A DNA stretch of 64,000 bases from Meiothermus sp. (lineage in GTDB: Bacteria; Deinococcota; Deinococci; Deinococcales; Thermaceae), in assembly GCF_026004115.1 (NCBI RefSeq), contig NZ_BPIM01000001.1, positions 310,001-374,000 of the forward strand, written 5' to 3'. Every line of letters starts with the position of its first letter. The stretch's first letter is position 1. The position numbers were made by a program, and so were the translations under genes. The notes beneath the pieces are model-generated. The model had not been told where the DNA came from and did no database searches. It saw only the letters and a list, made by a program, of their open reading frames with translations. Below are positions 8,678-33,777 of this stretch, piece by piece.

Positions 8678-8693
8678 AGCGGCCTCCCACGAA

Positions 8694-8755
8694 TACCCAG
8701 AACATCGGGTTTTGCTGTTCTGGGTAAAACACTCCACATCGCATGTGGAGTGTTT
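8694..8755 (+). terminator. Tandem perfect hairpins after the rRNA methyltransferase gene
   Basis: Two stem-loops lie back to back. TACCCAGAACA (8694-8704) pairs with TGTTCTGGGTA (8716-8726), 11 bp. A 13-bp stem, AAACACTCCACAT (8727-8739) with ATGTGGAGTGTTT (8743-8755), follows immediately with a 3-nt loop. The second ends in TTT and is the likely terminator. Confidence 0.7.
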
Positions 8756-23412: not shown

Positions 23413-26202
23413 CTAGCCCCTCAGGGCCCGTTTGAAAATTTGCGGAGCAAACTCCGCCACCGCTCGCAAGAATCCGGTGATGCCCCTGGCCCTTCCAGGC
23501 GTGATGTAGACCGGCACCCCCAGGTTCTCGGCCTCCAGGCGCACCGGCTCGGAGAGGTCGTGGCCCACATAGCTGCTGATGATCATAAGGCCGTGGGCTC
23601 GCTCGAGCCGGCTCTGGATGCGCCGCAATACCTCCCGCCCGGCGGCGTGGCTGTCGGAGTCAAACCAGTCGAGCTCGAGGCCCTGGTTTTTCAGAATAGG
23701 GGTCAGGCGGCTTCGAAGCTGGGTGTGGCCCCCAACCACCATCAAATACTCTCCATGGAAGCGGGGCAGTGCCTCGCGCATCAGGCTTTCGGCCGTCGCG
23801 CCGACCAGGGTATCCGGGGTGCCCTCCAGGGTAGCGAGGGCCCTCGAGGTGGCCTTGAGCTCCTCCAGGTATAGCTGAAGCTCAGGGTTGGTGGGGTTCA
23901 AAAAGAGCAGGTTACGCAGAATTTCGCGTGAAAGTGCCAGGTCTTTTTCCCAGTAGTAAGCAATATCCAGGGCTTTGCGCCAGATCTCGGTGGCCTTCTG
24001 GTAGGCCCCAGTTCGCTCGTAGTGTTCGGCCAGGTCGTACAGCACCTCCAGGGCTTCGGGGTTGCGGGCCAGCTCGGCCAGCAAGAGCCCCTCGGCCCCC
24101 AAAGCTTGCCCGGCGTTATACAGCGCGGCCAGGTACTGCCCTCGCACGGCCCCAGCCTCCTGGCTCTGGGAAAAGCTGCGCGAAAGCCGGTAGGCCAGCT
24201 CGAGGTGCTCCAGCGGAGGCTCCGGGGTTTGTTTCAGGCTCTGGGCCAGCATACGAAAGGCCTCCCAGGGGCCCTCCAGGGTCTCGACCAGTTTCAGCAC
24301 CGGCTCAATCTCGCCAAAAGGTTGAAGTCCCGCTTCTCGCACCCGGCCCAAAAACTCTTTGGCCAGCACGGGCTCACCAGCTTCAAAGGCTTCCTGAGCC
24401 AGCTCAAATAGCTGTCGAACCGGGTAGGCCCGGTGTGCGTGGGCCCGCTTGTGATCGCCTAAAATCTCCTGTATGGGATAGCCCAAGAACCGCTTGGAGA
24501 GGGCCAATAGGTGGTAGGCCAGCCCAGCCGGTTCGCCACGGGAGGCCTGCGCGGCCCGCTCGAGGTAGCGCACTGCCTCGGCGTACCGCCCCTCCCGGTG
24601 CCGCAGCAGCCCCAAAGCCAGGAGCGCGGTGGCGTCCTCGGCACGGGCGACCGCATCGGTCAGGTAGGGCTCTACCTCCTTGAGGTCGGCCAGCGGTACC
24701 CCGTCCAGTGCTTCGGGGCTTCGCACCTTCAGGCCCGACAGGGCCAACCCCAAAGCCCCGTGGGACTCTCCCAGAACATAAAGGCGCTGGGCGTAGCGGG
24801 CCGCACGGCCCCATAGGCCTTGTTGCAATGCGGACTGCAAACCCACCCGCAGCAAACCTCTTGTAAGCAGTTCGGGCGATAGGTCTTCGACGAACTCCAC
24901 CCGGCGGCTGGACTCGCTCCAGTCGCCTTCGCGAAACAAGCGCAACACCCGCTCCTCGATACGCTCGAGGGTGGACTTGAGGTAGACCTCGGCCTCGGGG
25001 AGGCCGCTCTCGTAAAACTGTCGCAGCGCATCCGACAAACGCCCCAGGCCCAGGTAAACTTTGCCCAAGGCAAACTTATACCGTCCTCCCCGGCTGGAAA
25101 GCTCCTCCAGGCGGGGTAAGGCCTTTGGGTACTCTTCCAGTTCGGCCCAGCAAAGCACCCGCAGCGTTTCGGCTTCGGGGTGGTGCGCTTGTGCCAGGGC
25201 TTCGTCGGCTTCGGCGAAGCGCGATAAAGCCCAGAGGGCCCGGCCGCGCAAATACGCCAGCTCTCCCCCGGCGCTGGAGGGTATGCGCTCCAGCACCTGG
25301 GCATAAGCACCCTGCTCGAGCAAGGCCCAGATCTCCTCTGTGTCTGGAAGGGGGTTGGATTCGACCGTAACCGAAGCTGCATCGGTGGGCCGAACTTGTG
25401 GTGCAGGCACGGGTAAAACCAGATCCGGGGGCATCTGGGCCGTTAGAAGAGCGTACTCCCCTTCGCCTATCAGCCGCACATCACCGAAGCCCATCTGTTC
25501 CAGGGCCCCCATCACCGCCTGGGGGTTTTTGCCCAAAAAAGGGCCATGGCTATAGACCAGCAACCCCCCCGGCTTTAGCAATCCCGCCAGACCCTGCAAA
25601 CGGCGAAGCAGGTCAAAGTGCGCCAGGTAAGCCTCTTCCTCGAGGGTCGAGGGCAAGTCTCCCAGGTACCCTTCCGGCAAACAGGACAGCAGCAGCACCG
25701 CATCCATGGTCGGCAGGTTTTGCTGCTCGGGGAACCACCCCTCATGCCACTGCACCACCTCGCCGGTGCGGGCCCTTCCCAGGCGGACGGCCTCTGCAAC
25801 ACCCTCCAGGGCGTGCCACTCCAGCTCGGGCCGGGCCTCTTGCAGCAGCGTCACCAGGGCCCCGGTGAAGGCACCTACCTCCAGTACCCGGCCCTCTGCC
25901 GGTAAGGTTTGGGGTAAAACCCGCAGGTAAAGCTCCATAAAAGGGAGGTGCATCGCATACACCAGGGCCTCGAGCCGCTCCTTGGGATGGCTGAGCAGCA
26001 CCTGGTAAAAACTTCGCACCGCCTCGAGGTTGCCCCCTTCCGCTCCCAGGTAGGCTTTCCAAGCCTCCAGAATGGGTCTTCGTCGGGCAGGGCTGCCAAT
26101 GCGTCTGGCCAGCGCGCTTTCAAAGCGGCCCGGCGAAAGGGGCGCAGCCAGATGAAAATGGGTACGAAAATAGCGTTTTACTTGGGTATCTATATCTTCC
26201 AC
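23413..26202 (-). CDS. Methyltransferase-TPR-DUF2325 multidomain protein
   Basis: Unusual large protein of 929 residues with the chosen start. The N-terminal third has a class I AdoMet-methyltransferase fold: GRVLEVGAFTGALVTLLQEARPE as motif I and GLLKPGGLLVYSHGP as the later strand region. The middle (about 290-780) consists of repeated helical pairs rich in Ala, Leu, Tyr and Glu that read as TPR-like repeats. The end is a DUF2325 domain, with YLMVVGGHTQLRSRLTPIL and MIISSYVGHDLSEPVRLEA. The GTG at 26202 has a GGGGAGGT site; a further 43 codons upstream lack support and are rich in unlikely residues. The substrate is unknown. Confidence 0.8.
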   Translation of the reverse strand: MEDIDTQVKRYFRTHFHLAAPLSPGRFESALARRIGSPARRRPILEAWKAYLGAEGGNLEAVRSFYQVLLSHPKERLEALVYAMHLPFMELYLRVLPQTLPAEGRVLEVGAFTGALVTLLQEARPELEWHALEGVAEAVRLGRARTGEVVQWHEGWFPEQQNLPTMDAVLLLSCLPEGYLGDLPSTLEEEAYLAHFDLLRRLQGLAGLLKPGGLLVYSHGPFLGKNPQAVMGALEQMGFGDVRLIGEGEYALLTAQMPPDLVLPVPAPQVRPTDAASVTVESNPLPDTEEIWALLEQGAYAQVLERIPSSAGGELAYLRGRALWALSRFAEADEALAQAHHPEAETLRVLCWAELEEYPKALPRLEELSSRGGRYKFALGKVYLGLGRLSDALRQFYESGLPEAEVYLKSTLERIEERVLRLFREGDWSESSRRVEFVEDLSPELLTRGLLRVGLQSALQQGLWGRAARYAQRLYVLGESHGALGLALSGLKVRSPEALDGVPLADLKEVEPYLTDAVARAEDATALLALGLLRHREGRYAEAVRYLERAAQASRGEPAGLAYHLLALSKRFLGYPIQEILGDHKRAHAHRAYPVRQLFELAQEAFEAGEPVLAKEFLGRVREAGLQPFGEIEPVLKLVETLEGPWEAFRMLAQSLKQTPEPPLEHLELAYRLSRSFSQSQEAGAVRGQYLAALYNAGQALGAEGLLLAELARNPEALEVLYDLAEHYERTGAYQKATEIWRKALDIAYYWEKDLALSREILRNLLFLNPTNPELQLYLEELKATSRALATLEGTPDTLVGATAESLMREALPRFHGEYLMVVGGHTQLRSRLTPILKNQGLELDWFDSDSHAAGREVLRRIQSRLERAHGLMIISSYVGHDLSEPVRLEAENLGVPVYITPGRARGITGFLRAVAEFAPQIFKRALRG

Positions 26203-26529
26203 CGACAAGCACCTCCCCGGCAATTCCCGTTGCAGGATATTGTGGCAAGTTGGGATTGTGCTGTAAACCGTCCAGCCCACCGTTAGAATGCTTACCCCTG
26301 GCGGGTATATCGCCAGGGGGGCCTCCGACACTGCTTGACGCCGCTTGCACCATCTGCCTGGAGGGTCTCATACCATATCCAGACGAACACTCCGCCTTCT
26401 CCCCTGGGCTGGAGAAGGTAGCGGCACCCACCTGCGCAAAATACGCCCGACATGGGATGAGGAATTCTCCAGGGCCCCTCGAGGCCATCTATCCGGGTTC
26501 AGCGGGCCGGGTTCAGTGGGTATCACTCT
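26203..26529. other. Gap with a perfect 9-bp hairpin
   Basis: CCCCTGGCG (26295-26303) pairs with CGCCAGGGG (26311-26319) across a 7-nt loop. It is about 95 bp upstream of the methyltransferase-TPR gene and 210 bp below the end of pxpBC, so it could be either an operator or a late terminator. No coding sequence is seen in the remaining bases. Confidence 0.4.
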
Positions 26530-28032
26530 TCAAGCTGGGGCATGGGACATCACAAATCTCAGTGTTTGTCCGGGGCGCATCTGCGCCAGCCTGGGTAAGT
26601 CGGCGGGATGCACCAGGGCCGGCTTGGCATAGCCCCCAAGGCGTCCCCGATCCTGAAGCAGCACGATGGGCTGCCCCTGGGGGGTTATCTGTACCGCTCC
26701 CAGCGGCGTGGCCTCGCTGATCAGCTCGCCGCCCGGCACCTCCGGCCCCGCCAGGCGAAGCCCCATTCGGTCACCCGAGACCAGTTCGTAGGGCGCCGCA
26801 CACAGGGCCCGCATGGCCTCCCGGCTGTACTGCGGCCCCGGCAGCAGGCGAATGCGGTGTGAGGTGAGGGCAGGCTGGGCCAATCCAAAGCCCGCTCGAG
26901 CCTCCCTGGGTTGCGCTACCCCCAGCACATCCCCCGCCCGCAAGGCCCGCCCCACCAGTCCCTTGAGGTCGGTACTGGCGCTCCCCCAGAAACGTTCATT
27001 CTCGAGGCCCCCAGCCAGCGCCAGGTAGCCGCGGGCCCCTTCCCCAGTAAGCCGGAAGCGCAGCAAATCTCCTTTTTGCAGGGCAAAGCTCTGGGCCCCC
27101 ATCACAGGCTCGTGGTTAACCAGCGGCAACATCCCATAGCCCGCAAAGGCCACCACCACCGGCTCGAGCGCGCTTAGCACAGGGCCGCTCAGGGTCAACT
27201 CGAGCAAAGGGGCGTGGGGCGGATTGCCCACCAACCGGTTGGCTACCCCCGCCGAACGTGCATCCAGCACCCCCGAGGCCGCCAGCCCATAGCGTCCCGC
27301 CATCCGCCGCCCCTCATCCAGCACCAGGTCGAGCAGACCCGGCTCCTCGACGCGCAAAACCGGGTATCGCGGCTCAGGGGGCAACAGGGAGCGTTCGGGG
27401 GGTAGGGCTGGGGTGGGGCCCTGGGCGGGCACAAAGCGCACCCAGTCCCCTGCCTCCAGCAAAAACACCCTTTCCCGCTGGGGGTTGTATACCTGAGCCA
27501 GGGCGGTTCCGATCAGATGCCACCCCCCGGGCGAGGGCAGGGGGTAGATGCCGGTCTGGTTTCCCGCTATGGCCACGCTGTGGGCCGGCACCCGTGGGCG
27601 TGGGTTTTTGCGGCGGGGCAGCCGCAGGCGCTCGGGGAGGGGGCCCAAAAATGGAAACCCTGGGGTGAAACCGGTTGCAAATACGCGGTAGAGCGGTTCA
27701 GTGTGCAGCCGGATGACTTCGTCTAACGCCAGACCCGTCTGCTCGGCCACCCAGGGCAGGTCGGGCCCGTCGTACCGCACGGGAATCTCGAGCTGTTTTC
27801 CTGGTTCCAGGTTGGGCAATTCTTCCAGGTATGGCCGCACCCAGCGCTCTACCTGTGCTTTAGATACCCGCTCAGCATCGTACTCGAGGTACACGTTTAC
27901 ATAACCCGGCACTATATCGGTCACCCCAGGCAGCAGGTTGGAAACCAGGGCCTTTGTGAGAGCTAAAAGTCTCGCGTTGGCCTCGAGGTCGAGCTGTTCG
28001 GAGAAAGATAGATAAAAGCCGGTGAGGGTCAT
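26530..28032 (-). CDS. pxpBC: 5-oxoprolinase subunits PxpB-PxpC, fused
   Basis: ATP-dependent 5-oxoproline hydrolysis together with PxpA. The 500 residues join a PxpB (KipI-like) domain, about 1-200 with ATGFTPGFPFLGPLP and the VAIAGNQTGIYPLPSPGGW loop, to a PxpC (KipA-like) domain, about 235-500 with GRYGLAASGVLDARSAGVANRL, GDRMGLRLAGP and PIVLLQDRGRLGGYAKPA. In many bacteria these are separate genes. The ATG at 28032 (MTLTGFYLSFSEQ) is chosen because upstream residues are low-complexity and out of family; no clear ribosome site is seen, so coupling to pxpA 35 bp upstream is likely. Confidence 0.92.
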   Translation of the reverse strand: MTLTGFYLSFSEQLDLEANARLLALTKALVSNLLPGVTDIVPGYVNVYLEYDAERVSKAQVERWVRPYLEELPNLEPGKQLEIPVRYDGPDLPWVAEQTGLALDEVIRLHTEPLYRVFATGFTPGFPFLGPLPERLRLPRRKNPRPRVPAHSVAIAGNQTGIYPLPSPGGWHLIGTALAQVYNPQRERVFLLEAGDWVRFVPAQGPTPALPPERSLLPPEPRYPVLRVEEPGLLDLVLDEGRRMAGRYGLAASGVLDARSAGVANRLVGNPPHAPLLELTLSGPVLSALEPVVVAFAGYGMLPLVNHEPVMGAQSFALQKGDLLRFRLTGEGARGYLALAGGLENERFWGSASTDLKGLVGRALRAGDVLGVAQPREARAGFGLAQPALTSHRIRLLPGPQYSREAMRALCAAPYELVSGDRMGLRLAGPEVPGGELISEATPLGAVQITPQGQPIVLLQDRGRLGGYAKPALVHPADLPRLAQMRPGQTLRFVMSHAPA

Positions 28033-28067
28033 GGACAGCGACGTATCCAGGAGGTGATCCAGGGGCT

Positions 28068-28820
28068 TCAGTAGGTCTGGATGCCTATGCCCTGGGCCTC
28101 CAGGGCTTCCCTGACGGCCCTGGCTATCCCCACTGCGTTGGGGTTGTCTCCGTGAATGCACAGGGTCTGGGCCCGTACCTCGACCCAACCGCCGTCCACT
28201 GCCTCCACCCGGCCCTCCACCACCATCTGCACGGCCCGGCGGGCAGCCAGCTCAGGCGAATGAATCCAGGCGCCCGGGGTGCCCCGGGGGGCCAGGCGAC
28301 CATCGGAGGCATAACCCCGCTCAGGAAAGGCCTCCGCAACGGTACGAAGCCCCAGCTTCTGGGCCTCGGCCTCCAGCGGCGTGTTGGGCAATACCACCAG
28401 GGGTATCTGGGGGTCAAAGTCTCGGGCGGCCTCGGCGATGGCCCTTGCGGTCCCGGGGTCTTTGGTGGCCCGGTTGTAGAGGGCGCCGTGGGCCTTGATG
28501 TGGTGTAGGGGCATCTGCGCCAGCTTCAAGAAAGCCCAGAGGGCCCCCACCTGGTAGAGCACATCGGCGTACACCTCCTCGGGCGTGGCGGCCATCTCCC
28601 GCCGCCCAAACCCCACCAGGTCTGGAAAACCTGGGTGCGCCCCCACGGCCACCCCGGTCTGCCGAGCGAGCTCGAGGGTGCGCTTTATGGTCAGAGGGTC
28701 GCCCGCATGAAACCCGCAGGCCACGTTTACTGAGCTAATCAGGGGGAAGAGTTCTTCATCCCGACCTAGCGTCCAGTTGCCAAACGATTCACCGGCATCG
28801 GCGTTCAAGTCTATTTGCAT
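28068..28820 (-). CDS. pxpA: 5-oxoprolinase subunit PxpA (LamB/YcsF family)
   Basis: Metal-independent TIM-barrel-like subunit of 5-oxoprolinase. The 250 residues begin MQIDLNADAGESFGNWTLG, the exact family signature, followed by VNVACGFHAGDPLTIKRTLELA and VGAHPGFPDLVGFGRREM. It lies upstream of pxpBC on the same strand and downstream of the TRAP transporter genes, with a 177-bp gap to dctM that contains a GGGGC/GCCCC hairpin. Confidence 0.96.
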   Translation of the reverse strand: MQIDLNADAGESFGNWTLGRDEELFPLISSVNVACGFHAGDPLTIKRTLELARQTGVAVGAHPGFPDLVGFGRREMAATPEEVYADVLYQVGALWAFLKLAQMPLHHIKAHGALYNRATKDPGTARAIAEAARDFDPQIPLVVLPNTPLEAEAQKLGLRTVAEAFPERGYASDGRLAPRGTPGAWIHSPELAARRAVQMVVEGRVEAVDGGWVEVRAQTLCIHGDNPNAVGIARAVREALEAQGIGIQTY

Positions 28821-28997
28821 ATCACCTCACGGATGGCCGAACGCCCAATGGCTTTCTGTGGTGTAGAAGAGATACCGCTTTCATCTGAGGTGTTCAGGCG
28901 CCCAGGGTCCAAAAACCATACCCTCTTAATTGGCGGGGCCATTGGCTGTTGCCCCAATATTAAACTTTCACCTTTAGCCTACAGTTCCCTTTAGCCA

Positions 28998-30302
28998 TCA
29001 ACCCCCAGTCATGGTGCGGGGAAGCCAGGTCACAATATCCGGGAACACCGTGATCAGGGCCGCCGCCAGCAGCAGCATGAACAAAAAAGGCAAAGCCGAG
29101 CGGGCAATGGTAAAGATATCCCGCCCCGAAAGACCCTGCAACACAAATAGATTGAAGCCGACCGGGGGGGTAATCTGGGCCAGCTCCACCGCGATCACCA
29201 AAAAGATACCAAACCACAACAGGTCAATCCCCACCGCCTTGGCCAGCGGCAGAATCACCGAGGTGGTCAGCACAATGATGGAGATGCCGTCCAGAAAGGC
29301 TCCAAGCACCAAGAACAGCAGCATGAGCACGGCCAGCAAGGCGTATTTGGAAAGCCCCAGCTCGCCCACCCAGGCCGCCAAAGCCGCCGGGATGCCGGTA
29401 AAACCCATAGCAATCGAGAGCACCGCCGCCCCGGCCAGAATAAAACCAATCATGCTGCTGGTACGTACCGCGCCCATCAGGCTATCCAGCAAACCCTGCC
29501 AGCTCAGGCTGCGCGACCAGAAGGCAATGAGGAGGGATCCCAACACCCCCAGGCTGGCCGCCTCGGTAGGCGTGGCCACGCCGGTATAGATCGATCCGAT
29601 TACCGCTACCATCAAAAGCAGCACCGGCATTATTTTGAGTAGCCCATACAGACGCCGCCCAAGGGGCATCGGCGGCTCGGGCGGGGGCATCTTCTGGGCG
29701 TTGAGTAGCCCCGCCAGCATCACCCAGCCCATGAACAAAAGCATTACCAGAAGGCCCGGCAGCAACCCTGCGATGAAAAGCCGGGCCACCGAGACTTCGG
29801 CAGCCACGCCGTAAACAATCATCATCACCGAGGGGGGAATCAGCAGACCCAGGGTGCCCGAACCGGCCAGCGAGCCCAGCACCAGCCGCTCGGGATAGCC
29901 CCGCCGCAAGAGCTCCGGCAGGGCAATCTTGCCCACGGTGGCGGTGGTGGCTGCCGAGGAGCCGATCACCGCAGCAAAGATGCCCGAGGCCAGCACGTTG
30001 ATGTGCAGCAGGCGGCCCGGGATGCTGCGCAGCCAGGGGGAAAGCCCCTCGAACAGGTCGGCAGCCAGGCGGGTGCGATAGAGAATCTCCCCCATCCAGA
30101 TGAACATCGGCAACGCCGCTAGCGACCAGCTCGAGACCGACGTCCACAAACTGCTCGCCACACTGGCTCCCGGGGGGGTGTTGGTGAAAAACTGCAAGCC
30201 CACCCAGCCCACCCCCAGCAGGGCCAGGGCAATCCAGACCCCACTGCCCAGGAACAAGAGCAGCAAAAGCACCAAAAAAAGCGCCACCTGGGTTAACTCC
30301 AC
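28998..30302 (-). CDS. dctM: TRAP transporter large permease (DctM type)
   Basis: Membrane subunit that carries substrate and sodium in tripartite ATP-independent periplasmic transporters. The 434 residues form about 12 hydrophobic helices, with the family stretches GSSAATTATVGKIALPELLRRGYP and GSGTLGLLIPPSVMMIVYG, and APVGFNLFV-like ITPPVGFNLFVLQGLSG near the C-terminus. It starts 3 bp after dctQ. The operon context suggests 5-oxoproline as substrate (inference). Confidence 0.95.
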   Translation of the reverse strand: MELTQVALFLVLLLLLFLGSGVWIALALLGVGWVGLQFFTNTPPGASVASSLWTSVSSWSLAALPMFIWMGEILYRTRLAADLFEGLSPWLRSIPGRLLHINVLASGIFAAVIGSSAATTATVGKIALPELLRRGYPERLVLGSLAGSGTLGLLIPPSVMMIVYGVAAEVSVARLFIAGLLPGLLVMLLFMGWVMLAGLLNAQKMPPPEPPMPLGRRLYGLLKIMPVLLLMVAVIGSIYTGVATPTEAASLGVLGSLLIAFWSRSLSWQGLLDSLMGAVRTSSMIGFILAGAAVLSIAMGFTGIPAALAAWVGELGLSKYALLAVLMLLFLVLGAFLDGISIIVLTTSVILPLAKAVGIDLLWFGIFLVIAVELAQITPPVGFNLFVLQGLSGRDIFTIARSALPFLFMLLLAAALITVFPDIVTWLPRTMTGG

Positions 30303-30305
30303 TGG

Positions 30306-30812
30306 CTACTCCTGTCCCCCACCCTCAGCAAGATAGCTGGGGAGCTCTCCTCTGAGCAAAGCCCCCAGGCTATCGACCAGCGCGATGGTAAATATGGTCA
30401 GACCCACCGCCAGAAAGCTCTGCGGTATCCAGATGGGCAGGGGCAACAGTCCCGGGGCCAGGTCGCCATAGCGGTAGGAATCCAGCACCAACCGCCAGAG
30501 TTGCAGCGTGGCGTAGCCCGAGGCCAGCAGGGAAAATGCGCTTACAAAAAGCTCGAGCGCCCGCCGCACCCTGCCCTGAAGCCGCCGCACCAGCACCCCC
30601 ACCCGGATGTGCGCCCCCGCCCGCAGGGTGGGGGCCAGGGCCAGGAACACCGCCCCGGCCATGGCAAAGCCCGACAGTTCGTTGGCCGACGGGATAGCCA
30701 CCCCAAGCTGCCGACCCACAACCTGGCCCAGGATTAGCAGGAAGATAAAGACCACCAGCAGCCCCGCCAGAAGGCTCGAAAAGCGGTACAGACCTTCCAA
30801 AAAACTTCGCAT
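30306..30812 (-). CDS. dctQ: TRAP transporter small permease (DctQ type)
   Basis: Small membrane subunit that joins DctM. The 168 residues contain four transmembrane helices, with the conserved FAMAGAVFLALAPTLRAGAHIRVGVL region (residues split across helix 2 and its loop) typical of DctQ. It sits between dctP and dctM in the usual order. Confidence 0.92.
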   Translation of the reverse strand: MRSFLEGLYRFSSLLAGLLVVFIFLLILGQVVGRQLGVAIPSANELSGFAMAGAVFLALAPTLRAGAHIRVGVLVRRLQGRVRRALELFVSAFSLLASGYATLQLWRLVLDSYRYGDLAPGLLPLPIWIPQSFLAVGLTIFTIALVDSLGALLRGELPSYLAEGGGQE

Positions 30813-30890
30813 AAGGCCCTCTCAGCACAAGGGGCGGGTAGCCTGGAGCCCGCGAAACCGACACAAGCCACGGGCCACTCGCCCCGGGCT

Positions 30891-31853
30891 TTATCTACCC
30901 AGGTAGGCCCGGTAGATGTTGACCCCGGTCGCCCCGGCCCGCCGTAGCCACTCATTGGTCATGGTCTGGCCCACCTTTTTGAGGTCGGCTACCAGTTGCG
31001 GGCCGGGCTGCAAAACCTGCATACCCCGCTGGGCCAGGATGGCGCTCTTGCTAGCGGCTTCCTGCTGGCTGGCCTGCCAGCCGCGCTGCTCGGCCCGGCG
31101 GGCTGCTGCCAGCACCGCTTCGCGGTCGGCCTGGCTCAGGCTGTCCAGGGCCCGCCGGCTCACAATGACCATGTTCTTGGGAATCCAGGCCCTGAGGTCG
31201 TAGAAGTAGCGGGTGAAGTCCCAGGCCTGGCTATCCACACCGGTAGAGGGGGAAGTGATCATGGCTGCCACAATGCCGGTGGCAAAGGCCTGAGGAATAT
31301 CGGCGGCCTCAACCTGGGTGGGAATCATGCCGGTGAGCTCGGCGATGCGGGCGGTAGCCGGGTTGAAAGCCCGGAAGCGGATACCCTTCAGGTCGGCTAC
31401 GCTATTAACCGGCTGCTTGGTGTAGAGGCCCTGCCCCGGCCAGGGCACCGAGAACAGCAGGGTCATGCCCCGGCGGTTGAGCCAGTTTTCGATCTCGGGC
31501 CGGGAGACCCGGTAGAGCCGCTGGGCGTCGTCGTAGCTGCCAACTAGGAAGGGAATCGAGTCCAGGGCAAACACCGGGTTCTCGTTGGCCAGGAGCGAGA
31601 TCAACACCTCGCCTATCTGAATCTGGCCGCCCCGCACCCCAGGCAGAATCTGGGGGTGGGGCAGCAACGAACCCCCGCTGTTCACGCGGATGATCAGACG
31701 GCCCTGGGTGGCGGTCTCTACCTCCTTGGCGAACTCACGGATGTTGATGGTGTGGAAGTTGCCATCGGGGTAGGGGGTGGCCATGGTCCACTGGGTCTGG
31801 GCCAGGGCTGCGCTCAGGGTCAGGCTTGCCAAGAGTCCAACGAGTTTGTGCAT
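30891..31853 (-). CDS. dctP: TRAP transporter solute-binding protein (DctP type)
   Basis: Extracytoplasmic receptor of the TRAP system. The signal peptide is MHKLVGLLASLTLSAALA. The mature part of about 300 residues shows the family pattern of a VRGGQIQIGEV loop, the helix FALDSIPFLVGSYDDAQRLY, and the ligand-binding arginine region DLKGIRFRAFNPATARIAEL. A TRAP receptor binding pyroglutamate is known in Bordetella; the gene's place between iclR and 5-oxoprolinase genes suggests the same ligand here. Confidence 0.93.
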   Translation of the reverse strand: MHKLVGLLASLTLSAALAQTQWTMATPYPDGNFHTINIREFAKEVETATQGRLIIRVNSGGSLLPHPQILPGVRGGQIQIGEVLISLLANENPVFALDSIPFLVGSYDDAQRLYRVSRPEIENWLNRRGMTLLFSVPWPGQGLYTKQPVNSVADLKGIRFRAFNPATARIAELTGMIPTQVEAADIPQAFATGIVAAMITSPSTGVDSQAWDFTRYFYDLRAWIPKNMVIVSRRALDSLSQADREAVLAAARRAEQRGWQASQQEAASKSAILAQRGMQVLQPGPQLVADLKKVGQTMTNEWLRRAGATGVNIYRAYLGR

Positions 31854-31863
31854 ACTTCCTCCT

Positions 31864-32679
31864 TTATGGCCGAACTGCCAGAAGCGACGACAGAAAACCC
31901 TCGAGGTCGGCCTGCCAGGGCCCTACGAACCCAAGCTTTTCCGATATTTCCCGGGCCGATTGACTCAAGGCTTGCAGGTAACCATAGAGCATTTTTGGGT
32001 CGCGGTGGTGGGCTTCTGCTCCGGCCAGGCTCAAGGCCGCCAGCACCTCGCCCTCGGGGCCCCGGATGGGGACGGCCAGCTCAGCAGAGTGGGGCTCGAG
32101 CTCCCCAAAGCTCACGGCAAACCCGGTTTTGCGAGTCTGATTGAGCAATTCTTGCAAATGCTGCAGGGCTACCGGTGTGGCCGGGGTGTAGCGCCTACGC
32201 TCACTCTGGAAGATGCCCTCCTGCACTGTATTTGGGGCAAAGGCCAGCAAAAGCCGGGTGGAGGCCCCAGCGTACAAGGGCGCCCGCCGCCCCGGGGCAA
32301 TATAGAGGCGTATCCTCGAGCGGGCTTCCACCACCTCGAGGTAGACCCCCTCCAGCCCGTCCCGCACCACCCACTGCACCGACTGGCCTGTGGCGTCGCG
32401 CAGGGCCTGCATGAAGGGCAGGGCCACCTGACGGGCCGGGTAGGCCGCCTTGACCAGGGTACCCAGTTGCAACAGCCTTGTCCCCAGGCGGTAGCGGTCG
32501 TTTTCGCGCACCAGCAAGCCATGCTGCTCGAGCGCCCGCAGACTGCGCAGGCAGGTGGCCTTGGGCCAGCCGCTCGCCCGGGCCAGCTCCGAAAGGCCCC
32601 AGTAGGGGCGTTCCTCGCTGAAAAACCCCAGCAAGTACAGGGGGCGCTCGAGGGTGGGAATGGCTTCAAGTGGTTTCAT
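31864..32679 (-). CDS. IclR-family transcriptional regulator
   Basis: Regulator of the downstream transport and 5-oxoproline genes. The 271 residues from the ATG at 32679 have an N-terminal winged helix (about 1-70, with GLSELARASGWPKATCLRSLRAL as recognition region) and a C-terminal effector-binding domain (about 80-250). A longer frame exists upstream but would run through the operator. The start codon is itself inside the first of two 13-bp palindromic sites (32675-32687 and 32695-32707), which argues for autoregulation. Confidence 0.93.
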   Translation of the reverse strand: MKPLEAIPTLERPLYLLGFFSEERPYWGLSELARASGWPKATCLRSLRALEQHGLLVRENDRYRLGTRLLQLGTLVKAAYPARQVALPFMQALRDATGQSVQWVVRDGLEGVYLEVVEARSRIRLYIAPGRRAPLYAGASTRLLLAFAPNTVQEGIFQSERRRYTPATPVALQHLQELLNQTRKTGFAVSFGELEPHSAELAVPIRGPEGEVLAALSLAGAEAHHRDPKMLYGYLQALSQSAREISEKLGFVGPWQADLEGFLSSLLAVRP

Positions 32680-32707
32680 TGAATGAACCGCCTGTTTATT
32701 GAATGAA
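32675..32707 (-). promoter_or_regulatory. Twin palindromic operator of the iclR-TRAP-pxp operon
   Basis: TTCATTGAATGAA (32675-32687) is a perfect odd palindrome, and TTTATTGAATGAA (32695-32707) differs by one base. The two start exactly 20 bp apart, about two helical turns, so two dimers would bind on the same DNA face. The first overlaps the iclR start codon. Binding by the encoded IclR protein is inferred. Confidence 0.7.
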
Positions 32708-32799
32708 CCTGCTGGCAAAACACTACGACCCGCTCCCCCCAACTGTCAAGGGGGGATGCTCGCTCGAGATCTAAAGCCCAGAGGCACTCGGCCAGATGC

Positions 32800-33777
32800 T
32801 TACCAGCCCAGCACCATGGCGAACATTAAGGGCGCTACAATCGAAGCATCCGACTCGATGATGAACTTAGGGGTGTCGGCGGCCAGCTTGCCCCAGGTGA
32901 TTTTCTCGTTGGGCACGGCCCCCGAGTACGAACCATAGCTGGTCGTGGAGTCGGAGATTTGGCAGAAGTAGCCCCACACCGGAATATCTGGGCGCTGCAT
33001 ATCCTGGTGCAGCATGGGCACCACACAGATGGGGAAGTCGCCCGCAATGCCCCCGCCAATCTGGAAGAAGCCGATGGAATGGCGGGCGCTGGTCTCAAGG
33101 TACCAGTTGGCCAGTTCCATCATGTACTCGATGCCGGTTCGCACCGTGTGCACGTTCTTGATTTCGCCATTCAGGCAGTGTCCGGCATACATGTTGCCCG
33201 TAGTGGAGTCTTCCCAACCGGGTACCACGATGGGCAGGTTCTTCTCGGCAGCGGCCATCATCCAGCTATCCTTGGGGTCAATCTGGTAGTAGCGCTCGAG
33301 CTTCCCCGAGCGAATAATGCGGTACAAAAACTCGTGCGGAAAGTAGCGCTCCCCGGCCCGGTCAGCGGCCTCCCATTCCTCCAACAAGGCCGCCTCGAGC
33401 CGTCGCATGGCTTCCATCTCGGGAATGCAGGTGTCGGTCACACGGTTGAGGTGTCTTTCCAGCAAGCGCTGCTCATCCAGAGCGGTTAGCTCACGCCAGT
33501 TGGGGATGCGCTCATAGTGGTGGTGGGCCACCAGGTTAAACAGGTCTTCCTCCAGGTTGGCCCCGGTGCAGCTAATGGCGTGTACCTTGTCCTGGCGGAT
33601 CATCTCGGCCAGCGAGATACCCAGCTCGGCGGTGCTCATAGCCCCCGCCAGCGTGACCATCATCACCCCACCTTGCTCGAGGTGGGCCCGGTAGGCCTCG
33701 GCGGCGTCCACCAACGAGGCCGCGTTAAAGTGACGGAAATGGTGCTTGAGGAAGTTTGAAATCTCGCCGTTTGCCAC
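32800..33777 (-). CDS. Deoxyhypusine synthase-like protein
   Basis: NAD-dependent aminobutyl transferase fold. The 325 residues include the SCTGANLEEDLFNLVAHHHY and GGGIAGDFPICVVPML regions and the catalytic-lysine motif ITWGKL (Lys 297), as in deoxyhypusine synthase. Bacteria have no hypusinated factor, so family members usually act in polyamine synthesis, for example homospermidine formation; Thermales are rich in unusual polyamines. The GTG at 33777 is chosen because GGAGG lies 6 nt upstream. The exact substrate cannot be told. Confidence 0.88.
   Translation of the reverse strand: MANGEISNFLKHHFRHFNAASLVDAAEAYRAHLEQGGVMMVTLAGAMSTAELGISLAEMIRQDKVHAISCTGANLEEDLFNLVAHHHYERIPNWRELTALDEQRLLERHLNRVTDTCIPEMEAMRRLEAALLEEWEAADRAGERYFPHEFLYRIIRSGKLERYYQIDPKDSWMMAAAEKNLPIVVPGWEDSTTGNMYAGHCLNGEIKNVHTVRTGIEYMMELANWYLETSARHSIGFFQIGGGIAGDFPICVVPMLHQDMQRPDIPVWGYFCQISDSTTSYGSYSGAVPNEKITWGKLAADTPKFIIESDASIVAPLMFAMVLGW

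Follow-up and report, generated by a model that had tools for sequence, protein, structure and literature searches.

A methyltransferase-type domain, a TPR superhelix and DUF2325 joined in one protein that is old within Thermales

What might a bacterial protein do that joins a methyltransferase-type domain, a long superhelix of tetratricopeptide repeats (TPR) and the domain DUF2325 in a single chain? The question is raised by a gene of 929 codons on the minus strand (23413..26202) of a 64,000-nucleotide stretch of Meiothermus sp. DNA (assembly GCF_026004115.1, contig NZ_BPIM01000001.1, positions 310,001 to 374,000 of the forward strand), the whole of which is hereafter called the window. This methyltransferase-TPR-DUF2325 gene is old within Thermales, and the best explanation of its product is a housekeeping-like methyltransferase of Thermales. 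More specifically, we tentatively read it as a soluble cytosolic methyltransferase whose partner would be docked on the TPRs and whose work would be tuned by a ligand bound to DUF2325, a reading that we regard as quite possible rather than probable.

Homologues match the 929-residue protein over its full length, with identity down to 48%, which excludes a chance origin of the frame, and the first frame of the plus strand of the same interval contains many stop codons. Translation and orthologues set the limits of the gene at a GTG start at 26202 and a stop codon at 23415-23413: the mechanically called open reading frame (ORF) reaches 26331, the homologues start near this GTG, and a Shine-Dalgarno-like GGGGAGG (26218-26212, minus strand) is followed by it nine bases on. 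Further upstream, a promoter-like TTTACA-17-CACAAT (26239..26267, minus strand) is a weak candidate, with one found against 0.4 expected in shuffled sequences. The preliminary description of this DNA had placed a 929-residue protein here and named no strand; the protein was confirmed, on the minus strand, and the domain content and order that had been proposed for it, methyltransferase-TPR-DUF2325, were borne out by Pfam, by family profiles and by the AlphaFold2 model. The protein has no hydrophobic segment of the kind that points to a membrane or export signal (the maximum 19-residue Kyte-Doolittle mean is 1.15).

How closely does the N-terminus resemble a methyltransferase? After a helical region at residues ~1-86 (25945..26202, minus strand), delimited by AlphaFold2 secondary structure and by alignment, a class I methyltransferase-type domain is placed by profiles, motifs and the model at residues ~86-260 (25423..25947, minus strand). 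Among 25 family members compared with Pfam at E up to 0.1, Methyltransf_12 was matched in 21, Methyltransf_23 in 18 and Methyltransf_25 in 14, the best E being 1.5e-6 (Methyltransf_25), and the N-terminal piece of the window protein, taken alone, gave a best Pfam methyltransferase E of 0.0053. When a family profile of the N-terminus was compared with the Protein Data Bank (PDB), HemK/PrmC came out best (E 5.4e-5), and 17 of the 22 matches (E up to 1) were named methyltransferases, the other five being three hypothetical proteins, CalS10 and one Bcl-2 protein. Class I enzymes are recognised by the glycines of motif I, an acidic residue after beta-2 and an acidic residue before beta-4. This motif set (E108, G110, G114, E/D133, D167) is present in 39 of 39 homologues, an alignment composed of single pieces of at least 850 residues from the 49 loci used, with exact duplicates removed and the window protein added, in which one row (from genome G051) is cut short at its C-terminus. 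Invariant throughout the 39 are L107, E108, G110, G114, D167, S173, P176, E177, P211-G213, H219-P221 and K225, and position 133 is always acidic (E in 27, D in 12); the motifs of the domain accordingly read LEVGAFTG for motif I (107-114), E/D133, D167, PGG (211-213) and HGPFLGK (219-225). In the AlphaFold2 model, region 104-256 has an order of strands and helices compatible with class I (block pLDDT 52-83), and from the conserved motifs we infer that the domain probably binds S-adenosylmethionine (AdoMet). A fast-evolving linker follows at residues 261-290 (25333..25422, minus strand), with no invariant position in the 39 rows and a block pLDDT of 33-62.

The middle of the protein is a TPR or helical-repeat superhelix at residues ~288-790 (23833..25341, minus strand), assigned from Pfam TPR models, the structure model and VIA-align. 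It belongs to the TPR class by a motif over the Pfam cut-off (TPR_2, 27.4 against 27, with TPR_12 at its cut-off and TPR_16 just below) and by a superhelix of helical hairpins. A scan of the window protein with NCBIfam and a single-sequence search of the PDB both returned weak matches, mostly to TPR-type proteins in the former and to TPR-type or designed repeat proteins in the latter. The full-length AlphaFold2 model, built with five sequences (mean pLDDT 66.6), consists of helices at 2-99, alternating strands and helices at 104-256, the linker, helical hairpins at 288-790 and a low-confidence beta-alpha block at 819-928. VIA-align listed 50 matches to this model, located for the most part over 299-786, and these are TPR proteins or helical-repeat proteins like them, for example Pins/LGN, consensus TPRs, MamA and O-GlcNAc transferase; methyltransferase structures are absent among these 50, all of which are of TPR type. 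The best of them has Z 14.0 with a root-mean-square deviation (rmsd) of 8.1 over 280 residues, values of Z below about 13 being such as may reflect an arrangement common among helical repeats.

DUF2325 closes the chain at residues ~815-926 (23425..23760, minus strand), recognised from Pfam, low-confidence models and conservation, with a predicted four-stranded alpha/beta fold. The Pfam match (PF10087, profile positions 3-79 of 94) has E 1.8e-6; its hmmscan score of 28.5 bits falls short of the 33.6 cut-off, and scoring with the frame neighbours gives 33.8 bits, marginally over it. Among 111 Deinococcota genomes, DUF2325 is matched in 54, once in each and always at this gene, and the cut-off is exceeded in 26 of the 54. 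DUF2325 is described as found across bacteria without known function (PMC9426514), and a DUF2325 protein is reported for phage PMBT54. The same PF10087 profile is matched by Campylobacter Cj1384, a protein of 104 residues with seven cysteines (PMC9426514), whereas here DUF2325 stands at the end of 929 residues and is free of cysteine throughout the 39 homologues; cysteine richness is to be read as a trait of Cj1384, one not established as defining the DUF2325 family.

Where in the domain does conservation fall? With the cut-short row excluded (38 rows), 51 of 114 positions are invariant. The loops after the four predicted strands, which read GGHTQLRSR, D.D, SSYVGHD and PGRARG, hold 22 invariant positions in 33, against 29 in 81 elsewhere (Fisher p 0.0025, for loops picked after the alignment had been viewed); on sliding the four loops jointly the maximum fell at zero shift, and shifts from -4 to +2 gave 20-21. 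The invariant residues thus appear to gather in the stretches that follow predicted strands, a pattern shared with ligand-binding Rossmann-like folds. An AlphaFold2 model of DUF2325 alone (pLDDT 60.3) has four strands alternating with helices. Its best VIA-align matches were 6c2u (Z 9.2, rmsd 3.0 over 101) and 2c8j (Z 9.1, rmsd 3.0 over 107), and at Z 7-8 came many unrelated folds of Rossmann-like, dehydroquinase, receiver and Ago MID type; Foldseek gave a best E of 1.1e-3 (3gx1) and none under 0.001, and the DUF2325 profile found nothing convincing among solved structures (best E 0.079). Because the pLDDT of the model is 60, the fold matches support an assignment as alpha/beta, Rossmann-like, and nothing narrower.

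Comparison of the window gene with five relatives of its genus showed purifying selection on each of the three domains, and in every one of the five comparisons it was DUF2325 that was under the strongest. The ratio of nonsynonymous to synonymous substitution rates (dN/dS) was 0.063-0.103 in DUF2325, 0.112-0.167 over the TPR part, 0.121-0.26 over the methyltransferase part and 0.119-0.253 within residues 1-85; three of the comparisons left it undefined for the linker, where the remaining two gave 0.26 and 1.45. Its lowest dN/dS makes DUF2325 the best-kept part. In five of five comparisons the methyltransferase domain is under less constraint than the other two, and this, together with the weakness of its family-model matches, would suit a non-catalytic scaffold, in which a relict methyltransferase-type domain binds AdoMet or S-adenosylhomocysteine as a signal, or else binds a partner, while the TPRs and DUF2325 assemble a complex. 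We consider such a scaffold unlikely: motif I, the acidic residue at 133, D167, PGG and HGP..GK are conserved across genera, and a relict would not need them.

How widely is the gene kept? The preliminary description had pointed to relatives as a place to look, and there the combination recurs: the protein was matched in 58 of the 111 Deinococcota genomes, and after two of them (G007 and G105) had been dropped for short methyltransferase-only or TPR-only matches, the three-domain gene was kept in 56. It is present in 17 of 18 genomes of the window's own genus, Meiothermus (g1), in both genomes of genus g2 and both of g3, in 27 of 27 of g4 (Thermus, to judge by a Thermus control and a neighbour gene), in the single g5 genome and in seven genomes of family f4 (genera g12 and g13, the latter presumably Oceanithermus-like). 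Across the same 111 genomes, with G007 and G105 dropped, the gene was found neither in any of the seven g14 genomes nor in any genome of families f2, f3 or f5. In family f1 it is single-copy and near-universal. Outside Deinococcota, a contig scan for the architecture with short exact peptides returned only four Meiothermus loci. A mobile origin was rejected because the searches of plasmids and phages gave no homologue. The domain-only plasmid search gave five chance-level matches (E 1 or more); one of them, midway in a 930-residue Agrobacterium hypothetical protein, was dropped, and another had no annotation beneath it. PHROGs contributed one chance-level match (E 0.043), and in a scan of viral contigs with the DUF2325 alignment seven stretches fitted a pattern, none of them confirmed as a relative. 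An anti-phage defence gene, considered on account of a PADLOC mad2 match (E 0.0012, residues 100-243 only), was rejected on the single-copy, near-universal distribution in f1.

Several observations weigh against a methyltransferase tuned through DUF2325. The Pfam methyltransferase scores of the window protein itself lie below the cut-off (0.05 or worse for the full-length protein), no family model or solved structure ties the domain to a class of substrate, and F or Y stands where GxGxG normally has its middle glycine, a substitution that some O-methyltransferases share. A partner held by the TPRs could be distinct from the molecule that gets methylated. Both structure models are of weak to moderate quality, with a mean pLDDT of 66.6 for the full-length model and 60.3 for DUF2325, DUF2325 lying mostly below 60 in the long one, which makes the DUF2325 ligand site a guess from sequence and secondary structure. 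Moreover, dropping the one cut-short row took the loop statistic from p 1.8e-4 (22/33 against 23/81) to 0.0025, a weakening that leaves the overall judgement unchanged because it affects no step other than ligand binding by DUF2325, already put as conditional. Finally, 6 of the 56 copies are incomplete, two at contig ends (G041, G012) and four interrupted (G031, G051, G060, G064). In G031, a single-contig genome of the window's genus, a run of G falls one base short of its counterpart in a relative (8690-8700 of locus L039, compared with L036), which puts DUF2325 out of frame and fits a sequencing error and a real loss alike; in another genome the frame breaks near the end, and two further copies are in pieces. 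If these breaks are real, the protein or its DUF2325 would be dispensable in those genomes.

With these points set against it, the mechanism that we tentatively propose for a ligand-tuned methyltransferase would run as follows. The N-terminal class I domain, on the strength of its conserved motifs, would bind AdoMet; the TPR superhelix, by analogy with FrzF, would dock a protein partner or complex and present it to the methyltransferase; the invariant strand-end loops of DUF2325 would bind a ligand that is small and probably anionic; and that ligand would tune docking or catalysis. Sensing through DUF2325 combined with modification of a bound partner, as had been suggested for this protein earlier, is plausible as far as sequence goes. 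The first two parts have described counterparts: CheR-TPR fusions are a described family (PMC3447774), and TPRs control FrzF methylation, restricting FrzF to one site (PMC2535941). CheR-TPR proteins (WspC, FrzF) likewise carry an AdoMet-dependent methyltransferase-type domain and TPRs in one protein; unlike them, with their two to three repeats, the present protein has a TPR part of ~500 residues and an extra C-terminal DUF2325, its domain has no CheR match, and its gene is kept in genomes without a chemoreceptor match. The preliminary statement that no described protein joins these functions therefore holds in one part and fails in another: the full methyltransferase-TPR-DUF2325 combination is not described in the open-licence PubMed Central (PMC) literature, among the matches listed, but methyltransferase-TPR fusions (CheR-TPR, FrzF) are. 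The open-licence PMC articles on DUF2325, in their available text, include none about this protein. What is new, as far as the literature was searched, is that DUF2325 has been added and that the TPR part is so long, each part being of a known kind.

Does the genome context say what the protein works with? Its best lead is a polyamine link. In the window, a deoxyhypusine-synthase-family gene (PF01916, E 3.6e-39; matched part 32818..33729, minus strand, G000:C1:342818-343729) lies 6.6 kb upstream of the 929-codon gene, and the minus-strand order is PF01916 gene, regulator, three transporter genes, two oxoprolinase-type genes, 929-codon gene, all names other than PF01916 being those that we presume from the sequence. 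Measured between the matched stretches of the two genes, the PF01916 gene stands upstream on the same strand at 133-272 bases in 27 of 27 Thermus genomes, at 160 in the g5 genome and at 190 and 205 in the two g2 genomes, which makes it the immediate upstream neighbour in 30 genomes overall; in Meiothermus it is 2.6-6.6 kb upstream in 11 of 17 genomes and on other contigs in six, and of the two g3 genomes one has it 59 kb away and the other has it on a different contig. A separate observation concerns the intervening cluster of the window (26530-32750, minus strand), which we take to consist of 5-oxoprolinase-type genes, a three-gene TRAP-type transporter and an IclR-type regulator, and which is not seen between the two genes in two g2 loci; its last gene, presumably of 5-oxoprolinase type, stops at 26530, 327 bases before the start of the 929-codon gene. 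It may also be recorded that the PF01916 enzymes of Thermus and of g1/g2 are 26-28% identical and form two subtypes in the same place (window 32818-33729; locus L050 7169-8191), which could have arisen through in-place replacement, from an old tandem pair that then lost a member, or through independent insertion on two occasions.

In Thermus thermophilus the homologous enzyme, TTHA1570, has been shown to be caldomycin synthase, which joins two agmatines in homospermidine synthesis (PMC10981699). Because the gene adjoins the PF01916 homologue in 27 of 27 Thermus genomes and that homologue in T. thermophilus is TTHA1570, the orthologue of the 929-residue protein is probably TTHA1569, a tag derived from TTHA1570 and gene order, and one that was not found in the open-licence PMC literature. 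The MqnD-like gene downstream in Thermus would, we assume, be TTHA1568. On such grounds the protein might be a small-molecule methyltransferase or a scaffold tied to polyamine metabolism, working with the adjoining PF01916 enzyme by organising enzymes or by modifying or sensing a polyamine, and the persistence of distinct PF01916 subtypes (27% identical) in one place would favour it. The lead is weakened, however, by family f4, where none of the seven genomes with the gene has a PF01916 match, and the distances in g3 and the separate contigs in six of 17 Meiothermus genomes likewise speak against it. In Thermus and f4, moreover, a different shared block (clusters c1 and c4) precedes the gene, so that the PF01916 neighbour may be a passenger, and we know of no methylated polyamine from Thermus. 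A role in polyamine metabolism is, all told, as improbable in our judgement as the non-catalytic scaffold. Among the upstream genes, clustered from the output of a simple ORF picker, c1 (presumably glutamate dehydrogenase-like) is shared by 13 of 13 loci, eight of g4/g5 and five of f4, and c6 (presumably 2-hydroxyacid dehydrogenase-like) by eight of eight g4/g5 and two of five f4 loci. On the other side, in four of five f4 loci (L043-L046), a gene that we take to be elongation factor P-like lies a few genes downstream.

A bolder form of the ligand-tuned methyltransferase would be a ligand-gated core regulator of Thermales, in which DUF2325 reads how much of a small anionic metabolite or nucleotide is present, the TPR coil delivers a conserved cellular partner for methylation to match, and the pathway of the neighbouring homospermidine/caldomycin enzyme is linked in Thermaceae; this we hold to be slightly more doubtful again than the scaffold or the polyamine role.

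Less probable still is a methyltransferase linked to translation or RNA, with a ribosomal protein, release factor, tRNA or rRNA as its target and the TPRs as its means of recruitment. Its appeal lies in the nearest profile match, the release-factor methyltransferase PrmC/HemK, which covers the AdoMet-binding half and is preceded by a helical region in PrmC as it is here, and in the near-universal presence in f1, which fits a housekeeping target. Unlike PrmC/HemK, however, to which its similarity is weak, the window protein is far larger and lacks NPPY, a motif of PrmC; at least one f4 genome has a separate PrmC-like gene (G010, a weak second match recognised from sequence); and Pfam and NCBIfam show no RNA-binding domain.

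There remains the chemoreceptor question. The window's own genome has two proteins with the MCP domain of chemoreceptors and no CheR match, and since CheR-TPR fusions exist, the idea arose that the protein substitutes for CheR. The two MCP matches of this genome lie outside the window, at G000:C1:1907496-1908044 and 1909835-1910374. Two MCP-domain proteins each are found in 21 of 22 g1-g3 genomes, and none of these genomes has an intact CheR or CheB (G034 has fragments, and G029 a CheB match under the threshold; in family f1, CheR is represented by the G034 fragment only), so that the chemosensory system of g1-g3 seems to be without its usual methylation arm. In the 21 f1 genomes with both, the MCP genes lie 0.65-1.57 Mb from the 929-codon gene (five genomes) or on different contigs (16); such distances do not place it in a chemosensory gene cluster, its neighbours not having been scanned for other chemosensory families. 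A substitute that methylates chemoreceptors where CheR is absent, for all the likeness of its domain plan to CheR-TPR, is very improbable and is refuted as a general function because Thermus, g5 and f4 keep the gene without an MCP match (27 g4 genomes, g5 and seven f4 genomes with the gene), the CheR model (PF01739) moreover finding no match among 25 family members at E up to 0.1.

For the biology of the family, T. thermophilus, with its tractable genetics and a single copy of DUF2325 that shares its chain with an enzyme-type domain and a docking coil, offers a practical place to find the function of DUF2325. Were the ligand-gated regulator true, it would give DUF2325 its first function, that of a sensor or allosteric domain; and if the methyltransferase is active, its target would represent an overlooked modification system, one that most of a bacterial family has conserved.

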